Shown here: piece by piece, positions 1,712-38,407 of the stretch | Numbering within the stretch: the first letter of the stretch is position 1 | How the letters are laid out: every line of letters begins with the position of its first letter | Translations under genes and position numbers: made by a program | Source of the DNA: an uncultured Fusobacteriaceae bacterium | Lineage (GTDB): Bacteria > Fusobacteriota > Fusobacteriia > Fusobacteriales > Fusobacteriaceae | NCBI GenBank assembly: GCA_947072665.1 | Contig: CAMTIW010000008.1 | Span: forward strand, 1 to 40,620 | Direction: 5' to 3' | DNA: 40,620 bases | The notes under the pieces: model-generated | What the model saw: only the letters and a program-made list of their open reading frames with translations | Databases searched by the model: none | Told to the model about the DNA's origin: nothing

Positions 1712-2383
1712 TTAATTTTTTAATAAATATGCCTTATATAGCTGTTTGAGTGCTCTCATACAGCTTCTTTTAATTCTATCATTTTCTTTTAAATGCTTAG
1801 TTTTAGTAGCTTTTTCTAGATAACCTTTATATATATATATTTGAGTTTGATTGAGCATATTTACATGGGATGGTGAGATATATTTTTCTTTTACCATTTT
1901 TAAAAGTAAATATTTATTTCTTTCTTCTAGATTTAGTTTTAAAAGCATGGGATAAAATTTAGAGGAGAGGTCTTTTATATTTTCAGGAAAAAATTTATAA
2001 AAATCTTTTATTTCATAGTATTCTTCCATTTTATCTTTATGAAATTCAAATGATGAAAAAAAGATAGAATAAAAAATTTCAGGATTTTCAAAGGAACAAC
2101 TACAAAAAAAATCCCAAACTAAAATATTTTCCTCCAAACTATTTTTTGGATTTCCAACATATATTTCTAAATTTTCATTATAGTATCTTAAAAATTTTAA
2201 ACTGGATAAAAAAATTAAATCATCAAATTTTTTAAAGTGCGAGTAAATTGTTCCGCTAGTGTAACCAGCTCTGGCAGAAACTTTTCTGATGGAGATACCA
2301 GATAATCCTTCCTCCTCTAACATTTGTGATGTAGTTTCTATTAAAATACGTTTGACATTATGTATATATTTCTGTTCTTTCAT
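1712..2383 (-). CDS. TetR/AcrR-family transcriptional regulator
   Basis: A one-component DNA-binding regulator of 223 residues. The N-terminus carries a typical TetR helix-turn-helix (GLSGISIRKVSARAGYTSG then TIYSHFKKFDDLI); the remainder is a helical ligand-binding and dimer domain with no recognisable ligand specificity. I chose the start at 2383 because GGAG lies 8 bases upstream; an in-frame ATG at 2422, 13 codons earlier, has no ribosome-binding site. The gene is divergent from the reductase-transporter cassette, and a 12-bp palindrome sits in the shared control region, so it probably controls that cassette. This is inferred from position only. Confidence 0.88.
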   Translation of the reverse strand: MKEQKYIHNVKRILIETTSQMLEEEGLSGISIRKVSARAGYTSGTIYSHFKKFDDLIFLSSLKFLRYYNENLEIYVGNPKNSLEENILVWDFFCSCSFENPEIFYSIFFSSFEFHKDKMEEYYEIKDFYKFFPENIKDLSSKFYPMLLKLNLEERNKYLLLKMVKEKYISPSHVNMLNQTQIYIYKGYLEKATKTKHLKENDRIKRSCMRALKQLYKAYLLKN

Positions 2384-2468
2384 AAGTTCAACTCCAAGTA
2401 TATTTTTAATATATTTTATCATTTTATGTTCTAAAAGTACAATTTATGTAAAAAAATAAAAAATAAAT

Positions 2469-2539: not shown

Positions 2540-3865
2540 ATGAAATTAGAATTTGGAAATTTTTATGTGAAAGATGTTAAGTTTGGCGAAGAAAATTCTT
2601 ATATTAAGGGAATACTTACAATTAATAAAATGGAAGCTTTAAATCTTATTAAAGAAGATGAGCATATTATATGGGCTGATATAGTAATAGCACGCCCTGG
2701 AGAAAGTAAAAGAATAGTTCCAATAAAAGAAGCTATTGAAGCGAGAGTTCGACTTGATGATAAAACTATTTTTCCAGGAGTAATTGGAGATTTAAGGCAG
2801 TGTGGTGAAGGAAAAATTTATACATTAAAAAATATGAGCGTAATGGGTGTTGGAAAACATTGGGGAAGTTTTGGAGACGGAATAGTAGATATGAGTGGAA
2901 AAGGAGCCAGTTATTCATATTATTCTAAACTTATAAATATATGTCTTGTTGCAGATACAGATGAAGAATTTGAAAGAAACGAACAACAGAAAAAAAATAA
3001 AGCAATAAGATGGGGTGCTATGAAACTTTCTGAATATATAGGGAAAATTGTGAAGGACTTAGTTCCTGAAACAACAGAAATTTTTGAATTAGAGCCTATA
3101 ACTAAAAGAAATGAAGAAGTTCAAAAGCTACCAAGTGTAGTCTATGTTATGCAACCACAGTCACAAATGGAAGAGTTGGGATATAATGATCTTTTATATG
3201 GTTGGGACATGAATAGAATGTTACCAACATTTATGCATCCTAATGAAATTTTTGACGGAGCGATAATTGGCGGTTCATTTATGCCTTGTTCTTCTAAATG
3301 GTCAACTTATGATATGCAAAACTGCCCAATGATAAAAGAACTTTATAAAGAGCATGGAAAAACAATTAATTTTTTAGGTGTAATTATGTCAAACTTAAAT
3401 GTTTCTTTGGAACAAAAAAACAGAGCTGCTTTATATGTGGCACAAATAGCTAAATCTTTGGGAGCAGACAGTGCTATTTTAGCAGAAGAAGGATATGGAA
3501 ATCCTGATGCAGACTTTATTGCATGTTTTGTGGCTCTTGAAGATGCAGGGGTAAAGACAGTTGGAATTACAAATGAATGTACAGGGAGAGATGGTCGTTC
3601 ACAACCACTGGTAGCATTAGATGAAAAAGCTAACGCTATAGTATCTTGTGGTAATGTTTCTCAACTTTTAGAACTTCCTCCTATGGAAGAGGTAATAGGA
3701 GAACTTGAATCCATTGGAAGGGATGGTCTTGCTGGTGGATGGGAAGGAGATGAAAAATTAGGTCCTTCTGTAAGAAAAGATGGTTCTATTATTATTGAAA
3801 ATAATTCAATGTTTTGTGGTGATATGGTAATTGGTTGGTCTAAAAAAATAGTTAAAGAGTTTTAG
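2540..3865 (+). CDS. grdI: Glycine/sarcosine/betaine reductase component B, alpha/beta proprotein (GrdE/GrdG/GrdI family; betaine type likely)
   Basis: This 441-residue protein matches the proprotein family that is cut into alpha and beta subunits of component B in Stickland-type reductases. In the known family, cleavage at an internal Cys creates a pyruvoyl group on the beta subunit that binds the amine substrate. Here Cys250, in FMPCSSKWSTYDMQNCP, occupies the corresponding place, and the following block (INFLGVIMSN, EEGYGNPDADFI, TNECTGRDGRSQPL) is typical of the beta part. The gene starts 43 bases after a strong promoter and is followed after 10 bases by the selenoprotein subunit. A BCCT transporter downstream favours betaine over glycine or sarcosine as substrate; this is context, not proof. 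Component A and C genes are absent here. Confidence 0.85.
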   Translation: MKLEFGNFYVKDVKFGEENSYIKGILTINKMEALNLIKEDEHIIWADIVIARPGESKRIVPIKEAIEARVRLDDKTIFPGVIGDLRQCGEGKIYTLKNMSVMGVGKHWGSFGDGIVDMSGKGASYSYYSKLINICLVADTDEEFERNEQQKKNKAIRWGAMKLSEYIGKIVKDLVPETTEIFELEPITKRNEEVQKLPSVVYVMQPQSQMEELGYNDLLYGWDMNRMLPTFMHPNEIFDGAIIGGSFMPCSSKWSTYDMQNCPMIKELYKEHGKTINFLGVIMSNLNVSLEQKNRAALYVAQIAKSLGADSAILAEEGYGNPDADFIACFVALEDAGVKTVGITNECTGRDGRSQPLVALDEKANAIVSCGNVSQLLELPPMEEVIGELESIGRDGLAGGWEGDEKLGPSVRKDGSIIIENNSMFCGDMVIGWSKKIVKEF

Positions 3866-3875
3866 GAGGAAAAGA

Positions 3876-5192
3876 ATGAAAAAAGGAATTCTTTATATTA
3901 ATCAATTTTTTGCTGGAATAGGTGGAGAAGATAAAGCTGATTTTTCTCCAGAAATAAGAGAAGGAGTTTTTGGACCTGGAATAGCTTTTAATAAATGTTT
4001 AAATGATGTAGAAATCTCTCATACTATAATATGTGGAGATAATTTTATGAGCTCTCATACAGATGAGGCAATAAAAATAATATTTTCATTAATTAAGGAT
4101 TTAGAATTTGATTTTTTCTTTGCTGGTCCAGCATTTCAAGCGGGAAGATATGGTGTAGCTTGTGGAACTATAGGAAAAATTATAAAAGAAAAATATAATA
4201 TTCCTATTTTTTCATCTATGCATAAGGAGAATCCTGGTGTTGATATGTTTAAAAAAGAATTTATTATTTTTAAAGGGGGAAGAAGTGCAGCCTCTATGAA
4301 GGAAGATATTCAGGTAATAGCAAATTATGTGAATAAATTAACTACCTATGAAAAATTAGGAGATGCAGAGGAAGAAAATTATTTTGGTCGTGGAATTAGA
4401 TATCAAATTGATGAAGAAAATAATAGAGAAACTGGGGCAGTACGTGCAGTTAAAATGTTATTGAAAAAAATATCAGGAGAGGATTATACAACAGAGCTTC
4501 CTATACCTAAATTAGAAACAGTTCCAATTGCACCGCCTATTAAGGATTTAAAACGTTCAAAAATAGCTTTAATTACTACTGGAGGTGTTGTTCCTTTAGA
4601 TAATCCAGATAGAATTCAATCTGCTTCAGCAACTAGATGGGGTATGTATGATATAAGTAAATTAGATAAATTAGAAACTAAAGTATATAAGACAATACAT
4701 GCTGGGTATGACCCTTCAGCTATAGATAAAAATCCTGATTTGTGTGTTCCTTTAGATGCTCTTAGAGCTTATGAAAAAGAAGGTAAAATAGGGGCGATAG
4801 ATGATTATTTTTATACAACAGTTGGAACAGGGACTACAGAAGCTGAGGCAGTAAGAATGGCGAAAGAAATAATTATTCATTTAAAAGAACATAATGTGGA
4901 TGGTGTTATTTTAACTTCCACTTGAGGAACGTGCACTCGTTGCGGAGCAACGATGGTAAAAGAAATTGAAAAAGCTGGTTTTCCAGTTGTACAAATGGCT
5001 AATTTAATCCCTGTAGCTAAAAGTGTAGGGGCCAACAAAATAGTCCCAACAATCTCAATTCCTTATCCTTTAGGAGACCCTAATACTTCTATAAGTGAAC
5101 AGTGGAAATTAAGATATCATAGAGTAGGAGTTGCTTTAGATGCTTTAACAACAGATATAAAAGAACAGACAGTATTTAGTGTGAAAATTTAA
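3876..5192 (+). CDS. grdH: Reductase component B gamma subunit, selenoprotein (GrdB/GrdF/GrdH family) with UGA-encoded Sec350
   Basis: The reading frame is interrupted by one TGA (4923-4925) and continues unchanged to 5192. Around it the protein reads LTST-U-GTCTRCGATMVKEIE, the hallmark selenocysteine site of component B selenoproteins, so UGA is read as Sec350 and the full protein is 438 residues, normal for the family. A perfect 7-bp hairpin begins 12 bases after the UGA and fits a bacterial SECIS. In known systems the Sec of component B attacks the substrate bound to the pyruvoyl subunit and passes a carboxymethyl group to GrdA. A caller that treats UGA as stop would wrongly give two genes, 3876-4925 and 4953-5192. 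Ribosome-binding site AGGAGG precedes the ATG. The betaine assignment depends on the adjacent transporter. Confidence 0.9.
4923..4953 (+). promoter_or_regulatory. Selenocysteine UGA codon and SECIS-like hairpin
   Basis: UGA at 4923-4925 is followed by arms TCGTTGC (4937-4943) and GCAACGA (4947-4953) with loop GGA. All seven pairs are perfect, and the loop lies 18 bases from the UGA, inside the range known for bacterial SECIS elements bound by SelB. The hairpin is also coding (SRCGAT region), as expected for bacteria. Confidence 0.8.
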
Positions 5193-5200
5193 TTAGATTT

Positions 5201-5237
5201 AAAAGAAGACCTCTTTGAATTAAAAGAGGTTTCTTTT
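5201..5237 (+). terminator. Hairpin between selenoprotein and transporter genes (terminator or attenuator)
   Basis: Arms AAAAGAAGACCTCTTT and AAAAGAGGTTTCTTTT pair with one bulged or mismatched base around a short loop. The right arm ends in TTTT but then continues into AAAAAGGGGGG, the ribosome-binding site of the next gene, so termination is probably partial and would lower transporter expression relative to the reductase subunits. Confidence 0.55.
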
Positions 5238-5252
5238 AAAAAGGGGGGATAG

Positions 5253-6728
5253 ATGGATAAAAAATATAGTAATACAGTTTTTTTTGTATCAGTTATTATC
5301 TCTGTAATAATAGTACTTTGGGGACTACTAGCACCACTAAATTTTCAAGAAGTTGCAAATTGGTTATTTTATGTAATATCTAAGCAATTTGGATGGTTTT
5401 ATATTTTATCAATGGCAATATTTATTTTTTTCTCACTATGGTTAGCATATTTTAGTAGGTTTCGAAACATAAAATTAGGGAAAGATGATGAGAAAGCTGA
5501 ATATTCAACATTTTCATGGTTTGCAATGCTTTTTTCAGCAGGAATGGGAGTAGGATTAATTTTTTGGGGAATAGCAGAACCTATAAATTATTTTTTAAAT
5601 CCATTAAATGAAGTTCCAGGAACAAGAGAGGCTGCTATGTTTGCTTTTAATAAATCTTTTTTGCACTGGGGAGCTCACCCTTGGGCAGCTTATTCAATTA
5701 TAGGAATGGCACTTGCTTATATACAATTTAGAAAAAATAAAAAAGGATTAATTAGTTCTTTACTTATACCGTTGTTTGGTGATAATTTTGGGAATACTAT
5801 TTTTGGAAAAGGGATAGATATTCTTACTGTAATAGCAACAATTGCAGGAATAGCAACTTCTTTGGGACTAGGAACTTATCAAATTAATAGTGGTCTTAGT
5901 TTTATATTTGGAATTCCAAATTCTAGTTTGACTCAAATTTTAATTATTATAATAACTACTGTTATAGTTATTATATCTGTTTCAACCCCATTAGAAAAAG
6001 GAATAAAGCTTATTTCAAACTTAAATATTTATTTTGCTATTCTACTTTTAATATTTTGTTTTGTATTTGGACCAACATTAGATATAATTAATACTTTTGT
6101 TGATGGATTAGGACTTTATTTTTCAAATTTTATGACAAATACATTTTCTATAGGAGCTTTTGAAGATAATTCTTGGTATGGTTCGTGGACTCTATTTTAT
6201 TGGGCATGGTTTATAGCATGGGCACCTTTTACCGGAATGTTTATAGCAAGAATATCTAAAGGAAGAACAATAAAAGAATTTGTTACAGGAGTATTAATAG
6301 CACCTGCTTTAGTTTCATTTATATGGTTTTCTATATTTGGAAGAATAGGGATAAATTCTTCACTTGTCATTATGGAGAAAGCTATAAAATCAACACCAAC
6401 AGCTTATTTTATAGTAATGGAACAATTTTCATGGGGGACAGCAGTCAGTATATTTACTATTATTTTGCTATTTACATTTTTTATAACTTCAGCTAATTCA
6501 GCAACTTATGTACTTGGAATCTTAAGCTCAGATGGAGATTTAAATCCAACGAATAAGAAAAAAATTATTTGGGCTTTACTTCAATCTGCTTTTGCTATGT
6601 CTTTGATGATTGGAAGTGAGAATGGATTGCAAATGTTACAAACGGCGTCAATTACATTAGCTTTACCTTTTGCATTTATAATGATTCTTTGTATAGTATC
6701 GTTTATGAAAGAATTGAATAAAGAATAA
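5253..6728 (+). CDS. BCCT-family betaine/carnitine/choline transporter
   Basis: A 491-residue polytopic membrane protein of the betaine-choline-carnitine transporter family, with about 12 hydrophobic segments. Recognisable signatures are the glycine-rich FSAGMGVGLIFWGIAEP near residue 95 and the WTLFYWAWFIAWAPFTGMFI block near residue 315, whose aromatic residues form the substrate cage in BetP-like proteins. The GMGVG stretch resembles that of sodium-coupled betaine carriers. It lacks the long N- and C-terminal osmosensing tails of BetP. It follows the component B genes in the same direction, so it probably imports their substrate, most likely glycine betaine; carnitine or sarcosine cannot be excluded. 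A run of six G (5243-5248) is its ribosome-binding site. Confidence 0.9.
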   Translation: MDKKYSNTVFFVSVIISVIIVLWGLLAPLNFQEVANWLFYVISKQFGWFYILSMAIFIFFSLWLAYFSRFRNIKLGKDDEKAEYSTFSWFAMLFSAGMGVGLIFWGIAEPINYFLNPLNEVPGTREAAMFAFNKSFLHWGAHPWAAYSIIGMALAYIQFRKNKKGLISSLLIPLFGDNFGNTIFGKGIDILTVIATIAGIATSLGLGTYQINSGLSFIFGIPNSSLTQILIIIITTVIVIISVSTPLEKGIKLISNLNIYFAILLLIFCFVFGPTLDIINTFVDGLGLYFSNFMTNTFSIGAFEDNSWYGSWTLFYWAWFIAWAPFTGMFIARISKGRTIKEFVTGVLIAPALVSFIWFSIFGRIGINSSLVIMEKAIKSTPTAYFIVMEQFSWGTAVSIFTIILLFTFFITSANSATYVLGILSSDGDLNPTNKKKIIWALLQSAFAMSLMIGSENGLQMLQTASITLALPFAFIMILCIVSFMKELNKE

Positions 6729-8565: not shown

Positions 8566-10587
8566 TTAGAAAAATATTGTAGCACCCTCTAAATTATCTA
8601 CTTCTGAAACAATAATATTATCTTTTTTTAAAATTTTCATAAGGAATAAAAGAATCATTGTTCCTGCAATAACAAATTCAGCTCTTTTAGGCTCCAGTCC
8701 AATAATATTTTTTCTTTCCTCTAAAGTTTTACTTTTAAATAGTTCTAAATTAGCTTCTATTATTTCCTTTGTTAAATTAAAAAGATTAATTTGTTCACTG
8801 TTGTAAACCTGCATTTTTTTAAAAATAGTGACATGAGTTGTAACAGTAGCTGCAACTCCTATAAGTGAAAAATTAGAAAATGAAATATTATTCAAGGAAG
8901 AAAAACTTTCTTCTAGCCAATCAGAACATTTTTGTATATTTTCATTACTATAAACTCCATGAGAAAAGAATTTTTCGGTAGCTCTAACAGCACCAACATC
9001 AAAACTTTTAATAAATTCCAACGCTCCTTTTTCCCCCATGGAAATTTCAGTGCTTCCTCCTCCTATATCTAGGATTGCAATTTTATTTTCTGAAAAAATA
9101 CTACTTATACCAGTAAAACTTAATGTTGCTTCTGTTTCTCCAGAGATACATCTTATATTAATACCTTGATTTCTAACATTTTCCATAAAAATCTCTCTGT
9201 TGGAAGCATCTCTTACTGCAGAGGTAGCAAAAGCTTCGATGTCTGTTGCACCATAAGAAATTGCAATATTATTAAAGTTTTTTATAGCTTTTATTGTTCT
9301 ATCCATAGCTTCATTATTCAAGTAATTAGAAGAATCAACCCCTTGACCCAAAGAGGTTATTTCCATGTCTTTGAATAAAGATTTAATAATTTTATTTTTA
9401 AAGTTTGAGTGTTGAGAATAGTTATCTTCCGTTACTTCAGAAATAAATATTCTTGCAGAATTTGTTCCAATATCTAAAACTGCTTTTATTTTAGAATTTA
9501 TTTCAGTACAGAAAAGTTGATTAAATTCACTTATTTGCTCTTCATTTAATGTTATATTTTTTAATTTCCCAAAATTTTCAAAAGTTATAAAATTTAATCC
9601 TGAGGTGCTATTTTTTTTATCTTTCTTCATGAAATTTATAAGAGTATCATCTTTTATATATACTGGTTGGGAATTTATTTTATATTTCTCAAAAAGGTTA
9701 AGAACTTCTTTTTTTATTTTTAAGAGATTAGAAAGAATAATATTATCGTCCTTATTAAGGAATTCTGTAAGAGTTATTTCAAAAATAATTCCCTTAGCAA
9801 CTCCTTCTCCGTGTGGCATATTTTTAAATCTATATATGGATTCCAAAGCATGTCCATAGGTATGACCAAAATTTAAAATAGCTCTGACTCCTTTTTCTTT
9901 TTCGTCATTTTCAACTATTAATTTTTTTATCTCACAAGAATATCTTATCATTTTTATCAATAGTTCATTATTTAAATTTAAAATTTCATCTGCATTAGAG
10001 GTTAGAAAATCAAAATAATCTCTATTATTTTTTATTAAAGAATGTTTTATAACTTCACCCATTCCAGAAATAAATTGCTGTTTTTCTAAAGTTTCTAGAA
10101 ATTTTGTATCTATAATAACAGCTTTTGGTTGATAAAAAGCACCTATTAAATTTTTACTATCTCTATGATTGATAGCAACTTTCCCTCCAATACTTGCATC
10201 TACTTGTGCTAATAAAGAAGTTGGAATTTGAATGAAATCAATCCCCCGCATATATGTTGCTGCAATATACCCCCCCATATCACAGATAACACCACCACCC
10301 AAAGAAAGAATAAGTGAGTTTCTAAAAAAGTTATTATCTTCCATAAAGTCATATATTTTTTCAATATTATCGTAGTTTTTATATTCTTCACCATCAGGAA
10401 GTTGAAAATATTTTGCATTGGGGATAAGGTTTAAAATATCATTTTTATATAATGCTCCAACCTTATCATTACTTAATAGCAGTATAGAGTCATACTTTTC
10501 TATATATTTTTTTAGTCTAATTAAAGAGTTATAACCTATATAAATATTATAATTTTGTTCTTTTAAAGCAATATTTAAAATATCCAT
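8566..10587 (-). CDS. aroB: Fused 3-dehydroquinate synthase (AroB) and Ppx/GppA phosphatase
   Basis: One continuous 673-residue frame joins two enzymes. Residues 1 to about 360 are 3-dehydroquinate synthase, the second shikimate-pathway step: LSLGGGVICDMGG binds NAD, then IPTSLLAQVDASIGGK, and metal ligands lie in GEVIKH (Glu178), FGHTYGHAL (His242) and MPHGEGVA (His259). From about residue 366 a complete Ppx/GppA domain follows, with KAVLDIGTNSARI, ATSAVRDASN, GETEATLSF and ILDIGGGSTEIS, the phosphate-loop motifs of exopolyphosphatase/pppGpp phosphatase. I chose the start at 10587 because AGAGGA precedes it; an ATG five codons earlier lies upstream of that ribosome-binding site. No stop or frameshift separates the parts. 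The second domain is short-type (about 308 residues), and its substrate is unknown. Confidence 0.9.
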   Translation of the reverse strand: MDILNIALKEQNYNIYIGYNSLIRLKKYIEKYDSILLLSNDKVGALYKNDILNLIPNAKYFQLPDGEEYKNYDNIEKIYDFMEDNNFFRNSLILSLGGGVICDMGGYIAATYMRGIDFIQIPTSLLAQVDASIGGKVAINHRDSKNLIGAFYQPKAVIIDTKFLETLEKQQFISGMGEVIKHSLIKNNRDYFDFLTSNADEILNLNNELLIKMIRYSCEIKKLIVENDEKEKGVRAILNFGHTYGHALESIYRFKNMPHGEGVAKGIIFEITLTEFLNKDDNIILSNLLKIKKEVLNLFEKYKINSQPVYIKDDTLINFMKKDKKNSTSGLNFITFENFGKLKNITLNEEQISEFNQLFCTEINSKIKAVLDIGTNSARIFISEVTEDNYSQHSNFKNKIIKSLFKDMEITSLGQGVDSSNYLNNEAMDRTIKAIKNFNNIAISYGATDIEAFATSAVRDASNREIFMENVRNQGINIRCISGETEATLSFTGISSIFSENKIAILDIGGGSTEISMGEKGALEFIKSFDVGAVRATEKFFSHGVYSNENIQKCSDWLEESFSSLNNISFSNFSLIGVAATVTTHVTIFKKMQVYNSEQINLFNLTKEIIEANLELFKSKTLEERKNIIGLEPKRAEFVIAGTMILLFLMKILKKDNIIVSEVDNLEGATIFF

Positions 10588-10619
10588 TCTATTTCCTCTC
10601 ATTATTTTTTATTTGTATT

Positions 10620-10716: not shown

Positions 10717-11760
10717 TTAACCTATATTGTTCTCAGGAGAATATTTTTCTCCTAAAAGATTTATAATTTTTTCAGTTCCTTCTTCTATTGTTTCGTAGAA
10801 TAACTCCTCTCTAAACTCATATTTATCTATACTCTTTTGATAGAGAGCATCATAATAACTAGTCATAAGTTTTTCAGAGATTAAAGGTAAATTACCCTCT
10901 TCAAGAAGGACTAAAAGTTCATCTACATATGAATGAGGTGCATATCTTTTTATTCTTAATATACATTCTTTGATTTCTAGAGAAGTAGTATTAGTATAAT
11001 CTCCCAAAACAATGTTTACTCTATGAGACATTGGGGTATCAACAAAGATATGTCTTCCATTTAAAAGTGAATGAAAAATACATTCGGGGACATAAACATT
11101 ACCTATTCTTTTACTTTCACTCTCTGCGATTACATATTTAGGTTTATTATTTTTAAAGAATTCATAGAGAAGGGATTCAAATCTCTTTTGACTTTGTGGT
11201 CTTTTTTCACAAAGTGCACCAAAGAAAGAACCTTTATGATCTGCAAATTTTTCTAAATCTAAAACACTATAACCTTTGGATTCAAGGGAATTTAAAAGTT
11301 TTGTTTTACCAACACCAGTTTTACCATGAAGAATAATATATTCTACTCCTTCATTTAAAATAGGAAGTTCTTTAGTTATAAATTCACGATAATTTTTATA
11401 ACCACCATCTAATTTGACTACTCTGTAACCAACAGAAGAAAAAAGAGCAGTCATTGATCCACTTCTCATTCCTCCACGTGCGCAGTAAAAAACAATTTTT
11501 TTTGTCTGTTTTGAAATTTTATTTATTTCTTTAAAAATTTCAGGTAATCTTTTTGAAACTGATTCAATACCTAAAAGTTTTGCAATTTCAGGTGATTCTT
11601 GTTTATAGGCAGTTCCTACAATTGCCCTTTCATCATCTAGAAGAAGTGGGATATTTATAGCACCCGGAATTCCTTCTGCTTGGAACTCTGCTGGAGTTCG
11701 AACGTCCACTAAAATATAACTTCTTTCTTTTATTAACTCTTCATAAGAGATTGTCTTCAT
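10717..11760 (-). CDS. selU: tRNA 2-selenouridine synthase (SelU/MnmH)
   Basis: A 347-residue enzyme that replaces sulfur by selenium in 2-thiouridine at the wobble position of some tRNAs, using selenophosphate. An N-terminal rhodanese domain (LVDVRTPAEFQAEGIPGAINIP) carries the loop Cys93 in FYCARGGMRSGSM, followed by a P-loop domain with GKTGVGKTKLL (146-156). This rhodanese plus P-loop arrangement is diagnostic for YbbB/SelU. The length agrees with the family. GGAGG precedes the ATG. The gene is alone between a terminator and the divergent recQ. With the selenoprotein at 3876-5192 it shows that the cell uses selenium for both protein and tRNA. Confidence 0.93.
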   Translation of the reverse strand: MKTISYEELIKERSYILVDVRTPAEFQAEGIPGAINIPLLLDDERAIVGTAYKQESPEIAKLLGIESVSKRLPEIFKEINKISKQTKKIVFYCARGGMRSGSMTALFSSVGYRVVKLDGGYKNYREFITKELPILNEGVEYIILHGKTGVGKTKLLNSLESKGYSVLDLEKFADHKGSFFGALCEKRPQSQKRFESLLYEFFKNNKPKYVIAESESKRIGNVYVPECIFHSLLNGRHIFVDTPMSHRVNIVLGDYTNTTSLEIKECILRIKRYAPHSYVDELLVLLEEGNLPLISEKLMTSYYDALYQKSIDKYEFREELFYETIEEGTEKIINLLGEKYSPENNIG

Positions 11761-36153: not shown

Positions 36154-37152
36154 ATGGGAATTATCCGTAGAATTAAAGAAAAATCAAAATCTTTAGGGAA
36201 AAAAATTGTTTTACCTGAAGGGACAGATGAGAGGGTAGTAAGAGCAGCATCAATTATTGCAGCTGAAGAACTTTTAACACCAATCATAATAGGAAATGAG
36301 GAAGTGATAAAATATATAGCAAAAAAAGCAAGAGTTTCATTGGAAGGAACAGTAATTTTAGATCCAAAATATTTTGATAAAATAGATGCTTATGCAACAA
36401 AATTAGCCGAGTTAAGAGCTGCCAAAGGAATGACTTTTGAAAAAGCTAAAGAACTTCTTTTGGGAGATGTTAACTTTTTTGGTGCTATGATGGTAAAAAT
36501 GGGAGATGCTGATGGAATGGTTTCTGGTTCAGAATCACCAACTGCTAATGTACTAAGAGCAGCAATACAAATAGTGGGAACTAAATCAGGAATAAAAACA
36601 GTTTCTTCTGTTGTTCTTATGGAATTATTATTAAATCAAGATCAATATGGAGAAGTTTTGGTATTTGGAGACTGTGCAGTTATTCCAGTTCCAACAGCAG
36701 AACAGTTAGCTGATATAGCAACTGGAGCAGCAGAAACAGCAAGAACAGTTGCAGGAATAGATCCTAAAGTAGCATTACTTTCTTTTTCAACAAAAGGTTC
36801 TGCAAAACATGAATCAGTTGATACTGTTATAGAAGCAGGAAGAATATTAAGAGAGAGAAATGTTACATTTGAATTTGAAGAAGAATTACAAGCAGATGCA
36901 GCTCTAGTTGAATCTGTTGGATTATTAAAATCTCCAAATTCTAAAGTTGCAGGAAAAGCAAATATTATGATATTCCCTAACTTAGCCTCTGGGAACATAG
37001 GATATAAATTAGTACAAAGATTAGCCAATGCGAAAGCTTATGGACCATTATTACAAGGGTTAGCAATGCCAATTAATGATTTATCTAGAGGTTGTTCTGT
37101 GGAAGATATAGTGAACGTAGCAGCCATAACAGCTGTTCAATCAGAAGTTTAA
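36154..37152 (+). CDS. pta: Phosphate acetyltransferase
   Basis: A 332-residue short-form enzyme that interconverts acetyl-CoA and acetyl phosphate. Family blocks include KIVLPEGTDERVVRAA near the N-terminus, MVSGSESPTANVLRAA, AVIPVPTAEQLADIA, LSFSTKGSAKHE and the C-terminal NIGYKLVQRLANAKAYGPLLQG. The long-form N-terminal domains of enterobacterial Pta are absent. It forms a pair with ackA, 49 bases downstream, in the pyruvate-to-acetate route that also uses the PFOR encoded after them. Confidence 0.96.
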   Translation: MGIIRRIKEKSKSLGKKIVLPEGTDERVVRAASIIAAEELLTPIIIGNEEVIKYIAKKARVSLEGTVILDPKYFDKIDAYATKLAELRAAKGMTFEKAKELLLGDVNFFGAMMVKMGDADGMVSGSESPTANVLRAAIQIVGTKSGIKTVSSVVLMELLLNQDQYGEVLVFGDCAVIPVPTAEQLADIATGAAETARTVAGIDPKVALLSFSTKGSAKHESVDTVIEAGRILRERNVTFEFEEELQADAALVESVGLLKSPNSKVAGKANIMIFPNLASGNIGYKLVQRLANAKAYGPLLQGLAMPINDLSRGCSVEDIVNVAAITAVQSEV

Positions 37153-37201
37153 TATTATAGTTTATAAAAAAATAAAAATATATAAAATTAAGGAGAAAAA
37201 A

Positions 37202-38407
37202 ATGAAAGTATTAGTAATTAATTGCGGAAGTTCATCATTAAAATATCAACTTTTAAATCCATCAACAGGGGAATTGTTTGCAATAGGTCTTTGTGACAGA
37301 ATAGGGATAGCTAATTCTAAATTAGAGTATGAAATTCCAGCAACAGATTTTGAATTAGAAATAAATCAAGATTTGCCAAATCACAAAATAGCGTTAGAAT
37401 TAGTTGTAAAAACAATAACAGATAAAGAACATGGTGTTGTAGCTTCAATTGAAGAAATAGATGCTATTGGACATAGAATTGTTCATGGTGGAGAAAAATT
37501 TGCTTATTCTGTTATGCTAGATGAGACTGTTTTAGCTGCAATAGAAGAAAATAATGAATTAGCACCATTACATAATCCAGCTAACTTAATGGGTGTTAGA
37601 ACTTGTATGGAATTAATGCCAGGAAAACCAAATGTTGCTGTATTTGATACTGCTTTTCATCAGACAATGCCTGCAAAAGCATTTATGTATCCTTTACCAT
37701 ATGCAGATTATACAGAATTAAAAGTTAGAAAATATGGATTCCACGGAACTTCTCATTTATTTGTTTCAAATGAAATGAATAGAATAATGGGAAATCCAGA
37801 GCATTCTAAAATAATAGTTTGTCATTTAGGAAATGGAGCTTCTATAACAGCAGTTCAAGATGGGAAATCTGTAGATACATCTATGGGTCTTACACCTTTA
37901 CAAGGGTTAATGATGGGAACTAGATGTGGGGATGTAGATCCTGCAACTGTTTTATTTATTAAAAATAAAAGAAATTTAACAGATAAAGAAATGGATGATA
38001 GATTAAATAAACAATCAGGAATATTAGGTATTTTTGGAAAATCATCTGACTGTAGAGATATGGAAAATGGAATTAAGGCTGGAGATGAAAGAGCTATTTT
38101 AGCAGAAGATATGATGATATATAGACTTAAATCTTACATAGGTGCTTATTCAGCTGCTATGGGTGGATTAGATGCAATATGTTTTACAGGTGGAATAGGT
38201 GAAAATTCAGCAGCAATAAGAGAAGGAGCTGTAAAAGGTCTAGAATTTATAGGTGCTAAAATTGATACTGCAATAAATTCAACTAGAAAAAAAGGTATAG
38301 TAAAATTATCTACAGAAGATTCAAGAGTATTAATTTACAAAATACCAACTAATGAAGAATTAGTAATTGCAAGAGATACTTATAAAATTGTAAATGAAAA
38401 TAAATAA
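37202..38407 (+). CDS. ackA: Acetate kinase
   Basis: A 401-residue kinase that makes ATP from acetyl phosphate and ADP. Signatures are VINCGSSSLKYQLL at the start, GHRIVHGGEKF, AVFDTAFHQTMP with the catalytic Asp, RKYGFHGTSH, CHLGNGASITA and CFTGGIGENS. The length is standard. It can also convert the acetyl phosphate released by betaine or glycine reductase, linking it to the cassette at 2540-6728. Confidence 0.97.
   Translation: MKVLVINCGSSSLKYQLLNPSTGELFAIGLCDRIGIANSKLEYEIPATDFELEINQDLPNHKIALELVVKTITDKEHGVVASIEEIDAIGHRIVHGGEKFAYSVMLDETVLAAIEENNELAPLHNPANLMGVRTCMELMPGKPNVAVFDTAFHQTMPAKAFMYPLPYADYTELKVRKYGFHGTSHLFVSNEMNRIMGNPEHSKIIVCHLGNGASITAVQDGKSVDTSMGLTPLQGLMMGTRCGDVDPATVLFIKNKRNLTDKEMDDRLNKQSGILGIFGKSSDCRDMENGIKAGDERAILAEDMMIYRLKSYIGAYSAAMGGLDAICFTGGIGENSAAIREGAVKGLEFIGAKIDTAINSTRKKGIVKLSTEDSRVLIYKIPTNEELVIARDTYKIVNENK

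Follow-up and report, generated by a model that had tools for sequence, protein, structure and literature searches.

A Predicted Betaine Reductase Selenoprotein Gene (grdH) with an In-Frame UGA in an Uncultured Fusobacteriaceae Bacterium

A gene interrupted by a single in-frame TGA in the genome of an uncultured Fusobacteriaceae bacterium (assembly GCA_947072665.1) is very probably grdH, encoding the selenoprotein subunit of betaine reductase component B. By analogy with the known family, its UGA would be read as selenocysteine (Sec), and we hold this explanation as a whole with high confidence. The gene is located in the window, i.e., the whole stretch of 40,620 nucleotides analyzed here (contig CAMTIW010000008.1), which is one contig of a draft genome comprising 228 pieces and about 85% complete. 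Betaine reductase of anaerobic bacteria converts glycine betaine to trimethylamine and acetyl phosphate; trimethylamine, in turn, is food for sediment methanogens and a precursor of TMAO in animals. Overall, this is an ordinary betaine reductase selenoprotein gene, similar to dozens of its relatives and offering little surprise, and the understanding of selenocysteine decoding is unchanged by it. Its significance is rather that a full betaine-to-trimethylamine reductive pathway would be placed in an uncharacterised fusobacterium, along with a caution for annotation practice, as routine gene calling shortens such selenoproteins (here, at residue 349).

Table 1. Coordinates of grdH, its recoding signals and the surrounding cassette in the window.
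Feature	Position	Strand	Details
TetR-type regulator, divergent from grdI, probable cassette regulator	1712..2422	-	PF00440
grdI, betaine reductase component B alpha subunit (unprocessed type)	2540..3865	+	441 aa; PF09338 602 bits
grdH, betaine reductase component B selenoprotein subunit (predicted)	3876..5192	+	438 aa; Sec at residue 350
In-frame TGA, predicted selenocysteine, opening residue of UxxCxxC	4923..4925	+	TGA kept in relatives; sole bridged TGA
Bacterial SECIS, Rfam RF01990 (SECIS_4)	4926..4963	+	stem 4937-4943 with 4947-4953; apical loop GGA
BCCT betaine transporter (OpuD type)	5253..6728	+	PF02028 592 bits; NF047988 591 bits

Results

An Open Reading Frame Bridged by a Single TGA

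Translation of the grdH region with TGA as selenocysteine (U) yields 438 residues with a single internal TGA at codon 350 and a terminal TAA (5190-5192). This bears out the sequence-only reading, in which one continuous frame was broken only by the TGA at 4923, with TST before and GTCTRCGATM after it, a context with which the sequence agrees; the predicted selenocysteine opens the motif U350-GT-C-TR-C (UxxCxxC). Truncation of the protein by automatic gene calling had been anticipated as well, and the standard ORF list indeed contains a 349-aa truncated ORF only.

When all TGAs on either strand of the window (n = 1,297) were scanned for an open frame of 80 or more codons upstream and 50 or more downstream, a single one was returned, the TGA at 4923, flanked by 357 open codons on the upstream and 88 on the downstream side; at the base composition of the window, a stop-free run of 88 codons has p ~3e-4. 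Of the 1,297 TGAs, 16 are followed at a distance of 8-20 nt by a perfect 7-bp hairpin. Because the TGA at 4923 is the only one with a long frame on both sides, the combination of TGA, hairpin and frame is not attributable to chance.

The same data address the possibility of an altered genetic code, in which TGA would stand for tryptophan or another standard residue. In keeping with such a code, none of the 34 genes examined (window 1-38407) ends in TGA (26 end in TAA and 8 in TAG). On the other hand, TGG encodes tryptophan 62 times in 31 window genes, no other long frame of the window is bridged by a TGA, TGA serves as the stop codon of selA and of one more gene in this genome, and the position of the TGA is that of the catalytic selenocysteine of the family. 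The TGG usage and the TGA stops elsewhere in the genome led us to reject an altered code, to which we assign a negligible probability, and the selenocysteine reading was retained.

Conservation of the TGA and Selection Downstream of It

A scan of GTDB genomes retrieved 166 relatives, the best 80 of which (spanning Bacillota, Fusobacteriota and Actinomycetota) were kept. In all 80 of these, TGA is present at the same codon, and in 78 it occurs within the motif T-U-GTCTRC (L033 and L085 have one adjacent substitution). A relative that at first appeared to have no TGA (G005) proved to be truncated by a contig end. Relative to three fusobacterial sequences, identity amounts to 84-89% after the TGA vs. 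64-78% before it, with dN/dS values of about 0.07-0.10 and 0.15-0.19, respectively; purifying selection persists beyond the grdH TGA.

These observations bear on whether the locus could represent a pseudogene or a sequencing error, i.e., a nonsense TGA followed by a decaying downstream part. Although a fragmented draft of about 85% completeness is a source in which such defects would be conceivable, the sequence downstream of the TGA shows purifying selection and exceeds the upstream part in conservation, and a SECIS element is present. A sequencing error removing the TGA, named beforehand as a finding that would overturn the selenoprotein assignment, is excluded by the presence of a TGA at the same site in 80 of 80 kept relatives. 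With the TGA conserved and selection extending past it, the pseudogene or error reading was rejected as extremely improbable.

SECIS Element

The perfect 7-bp hairpin noted earlier at 12 bases downstream is real: seven perfect pairs form a stem (Table 1) beginning at the 12th base past the TGA. A scan with bacterial SECIS models, proposed as a check, showed that the SECIS_4 covariance model matches directly 3' of the TGA with 54.0 bits, above the gathering score of 38 bits (window-wide E 4e-10), in an alignment that spans the full model. The grdH UGA is, hence, followed immediately by a SECIS hairpin, as is characteristic of a bacterial selenoprotein gene. It is this covariance-model match, not folding, that is decisive, the folding energy of the hairpin alone being mildly significant (z -1.76) and unconvincing by itself. 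Among the relatives, compensatory changes in the stem affect two pairs in four sequences, while the two outermost pairs are frequently lost; since the same bases encode a conserved protein motif, we treat these pair counts as limited support.

Assignment of the Protein to GrdH

A comparison of the joined 438-residue protein with the GrdB, GrdF and GrdH models, also suggested beforehand, revealed matches with the best fit to GrdH. Both PF07355 (507 bits, cut-off 22) and TIGR01918 (650 bits, cut-off 65) cover the whole joined protein, and the GrdH model NF040795 (771.1 bits, full length) outscores all others, with the ranking of GrdH (771), general family (650, i.e., 121 bits behind), sarcosine GrdF (559) and glycine GrdB (480). 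The product thus combines profile scores above cut-off with a UGA in UxxCxxC, the features of a Grd-type component B selenoprotein; the original view of the TGA as the Sec site of such a protein is supported by the family models, the SECIS element and the relatives. A search for solved structures resembling the product by sequence found none.

With respect to the curated naming cut-off of NF040795 (775), the joined protein is 4 bits short. The nearest relative (L021, another Fusobacteriaceae bin, 78% identical) scores 728 and is also below 775, whereas two clostridial members tested exceed the cut-off. The shortfall is read as a probable mild divergence of the fusobacterial branch.

A Conserved Cassette with GrdI and a BCCT Transporter

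The arrangement of a divergent tetR followed by grdI-grdH-BCCT is conserved in Fusobacteriota and Bacillota, with a BCCT gene 3' of grdH in almost every relative checked and a TetR homologue at the same position in most of them. By analogy with the known family, the TetR-type protein probably regulates the cassette; a promoter scan of this DNA gave hits no more numerous than in shuffles. An AT-rich hairpin with T-rich flanks (5197-5241) between grdH and the BCCT gene is possibly a terminator or a processing site. Upstream of the cassette, the window also encodes a TRZ/ATZ-type amidohydrolase (256-1644), which scores below every equivalog cut-off and for which no homologue near the cassette was found in the relatives checked.

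In an alignment of the window's GrdI with GrdE and PrdA of the same genome, Phe occupies the position of their pyruvoyl-forming cysteine (for the pyruvoyl groups that PrdA and GrdE derive from cysteine, see PMC9908766), and this processing column is Ser-Phe or Ser-Tyr in each of the 78 relatives whose motif could be read. GrdI proteins devoid of the processing cysteine have been published (PMC10838667), and grdH has just such an adjacent partner, as would a GrdHI pair.

The gene context, together with the profile scores, points to betaine reductase rather than another Grd protein. Alternatively, the gene may encode a selenoprotein B of the same family acting on sarcosine, glycine or a different quaternary amine, as might be suggested by a GrdH score slightly below the curated cut-off and by the substrate diversification of this family (e.g., fluoroacetate reductase in Synergistota; PMC10838667). 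We consider such a substrate improbable, given that the GrdH model scores more than 200 bits above GrdF and about 290 bits above GrdB, that the adjoining transporter is of the betaine type and conserved, that a GrdI without the pyruvoyl-forming cysteine fits a substrate without a primary amine, and that a separate GrdB/GrdE pair of the same genome scores as glycine reductase.

Selenocysteine Machinery of the Genome

The sequence-only reading had also called for selA, selB, selC and selD. Three of these were found: selA, selB and selD, as expected in a genome with bacterial selenoprotein genes, occur together on contig C10, all above curated cut-offs, with selB truncated by the contig end. For selC (tRNA-Sec), no hit reached the threshold in the assembled contigs, the weak hits being tRNA-Leu, tRNA-Ser and similar. 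The two other genomes of the genus each contain a clear tRNA-Sec gene (62.7 and 67.1 bits), located some 1-2 kb past the portion of selB that was matched. Since selB is cut at the contig break and the same-genus selC genes lie just beyond it, the missing selC is best explained by an assembly gap at this point.

Two further observations concern selenium. SelD itself appears as a selenoprotein, its N-terminal active-site motif (RCSIGG-U-ANKIGPEVL; L134:2943-3947, contig C10, minus strand) containing an in-frame TGA. A tRNA 2-selenouridine synthase (MnmH) gene on the minus strand of the window (10717-11760), about 5.5 kb from grdH, points to a second use of selenium.

Partner Enzymes and Proposed Mechanism

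Contig C6 carries a complete glycine reductase operon (grdX-trxA-grdE-grdA-grdB-grdC-grdD; L135:6106-12892), and contig C11 one for D-proline reductase with prdC, prdA, prdB and proline racemase (L136:3544-10347). GrdA, GrdB and PrdB contain in-frame TGAs at the expected places, and SECIS_4 is also found at the GrdB site. The GrdA, GrdC, GrdD and thioredoxin that GrdHI would share are, thus, encoded in the genome (contig C6), and phosphotransacetylase and acetate kinase are encoded within the window (36154-38407).

The scheme that follows is modeled on the known family with regard to its catalytic steps, substrate and regulation as well as the actual insertion of selenocysteine. By binding the SECIS hairpin, SelB would recruit selenocysteyl-tRNA to the UGA (4923), and the 438-residue protein with its UxxCxxC center would result. 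Glycine betaine, presumably imported by the BCCT transporter, would be bound by GrdHI, where the GrdH selenolate would attack the C-N bond with trimethylamine as the leaving group. The carboxymethyl group would then be transferred to the selenocysteine of GrdA and freed by GrdCD as acetyl phosphate, from which acetate kinase would yield acetate and ATP, with thioredoxin as the likely electron source.

Discussion

Comparison with Known Systems

Among the closest described counterparts is the GrdH/GrdI pair of amino-acid-fermenting clostridia (e.g., C. sticklandii CLOST_1057). The C. sticklandii GrdH has its selenocysteine at 352 of 440 residues (PMC3091704), a length and position similar to those observed here (438 and 350), and the family models, SECIS element, betaine-transporter cassette and GrdI without the processing cysteine are all common to both. 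In contrast, the host analyzed here groups with Fusobacteriaceae, and its grdHI cassette and grdXAEBCD genes are on different contigs. Cassettes of grdHI with a BCCT transporter and a TetR regulator have been described in sediment bacteria (Ca. Betaina; PMC6716910), and grdHI cassettes are also known from cold-seep Oceanirhabdus and others, with grdH orthologues associated with Fusobacteriia (PMC8547467). The BCCT-type transporter and TetR-type regulator are shared by these marine and sediment cassettes and the present one, but here the selA and thioredoxin genes are located elsewhere in the genome rather than beside the cassette. Within the genome, GrdB (C6) and PrdB (C11) belong to the same family and have an in-frame TGA at the same motif; the grdH product is about 50% identical to the former and 27% to the latter, and they are paired with GrdE and PrdA, which, unlike GrdI, belong to the cysteine-processed type.

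Distribution and Origin of the Cassette

The nearest named relatives by grdH are Fusobacteriaceae, and the product shares 61-68% identity with the retrieved members from Bacillota. Within Fusobacteriaceae, any relative of the protein is found in 8 of 47 good-quality genomes, and close GrdH relatives (at least 65% identity) in 3 of 14 genera. In the tree, the lineage of the window and that of Psychrilyobacter appear as two separate fusobacterial groups and not as one clade, though the strongly supported branches allow a single origin. It is conceivable, and we suggest it tentatively as the somewhat less probable course, that these two lineages of Fusobacteriaceae gained the cassette from Bacillota on separate occasions. 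If this holds true, fusobacteria with separately gained cassettes would represent independent producers of trimethylamine from betaine.

Apart from the cassette, we note that in a single 678-aa ORF on the minus strand of the window (8566-10602), a Ppx/GppA phosphatase domain is combined with 3-dehydroquinate synthase (AroB), a pairing that looks unusual.
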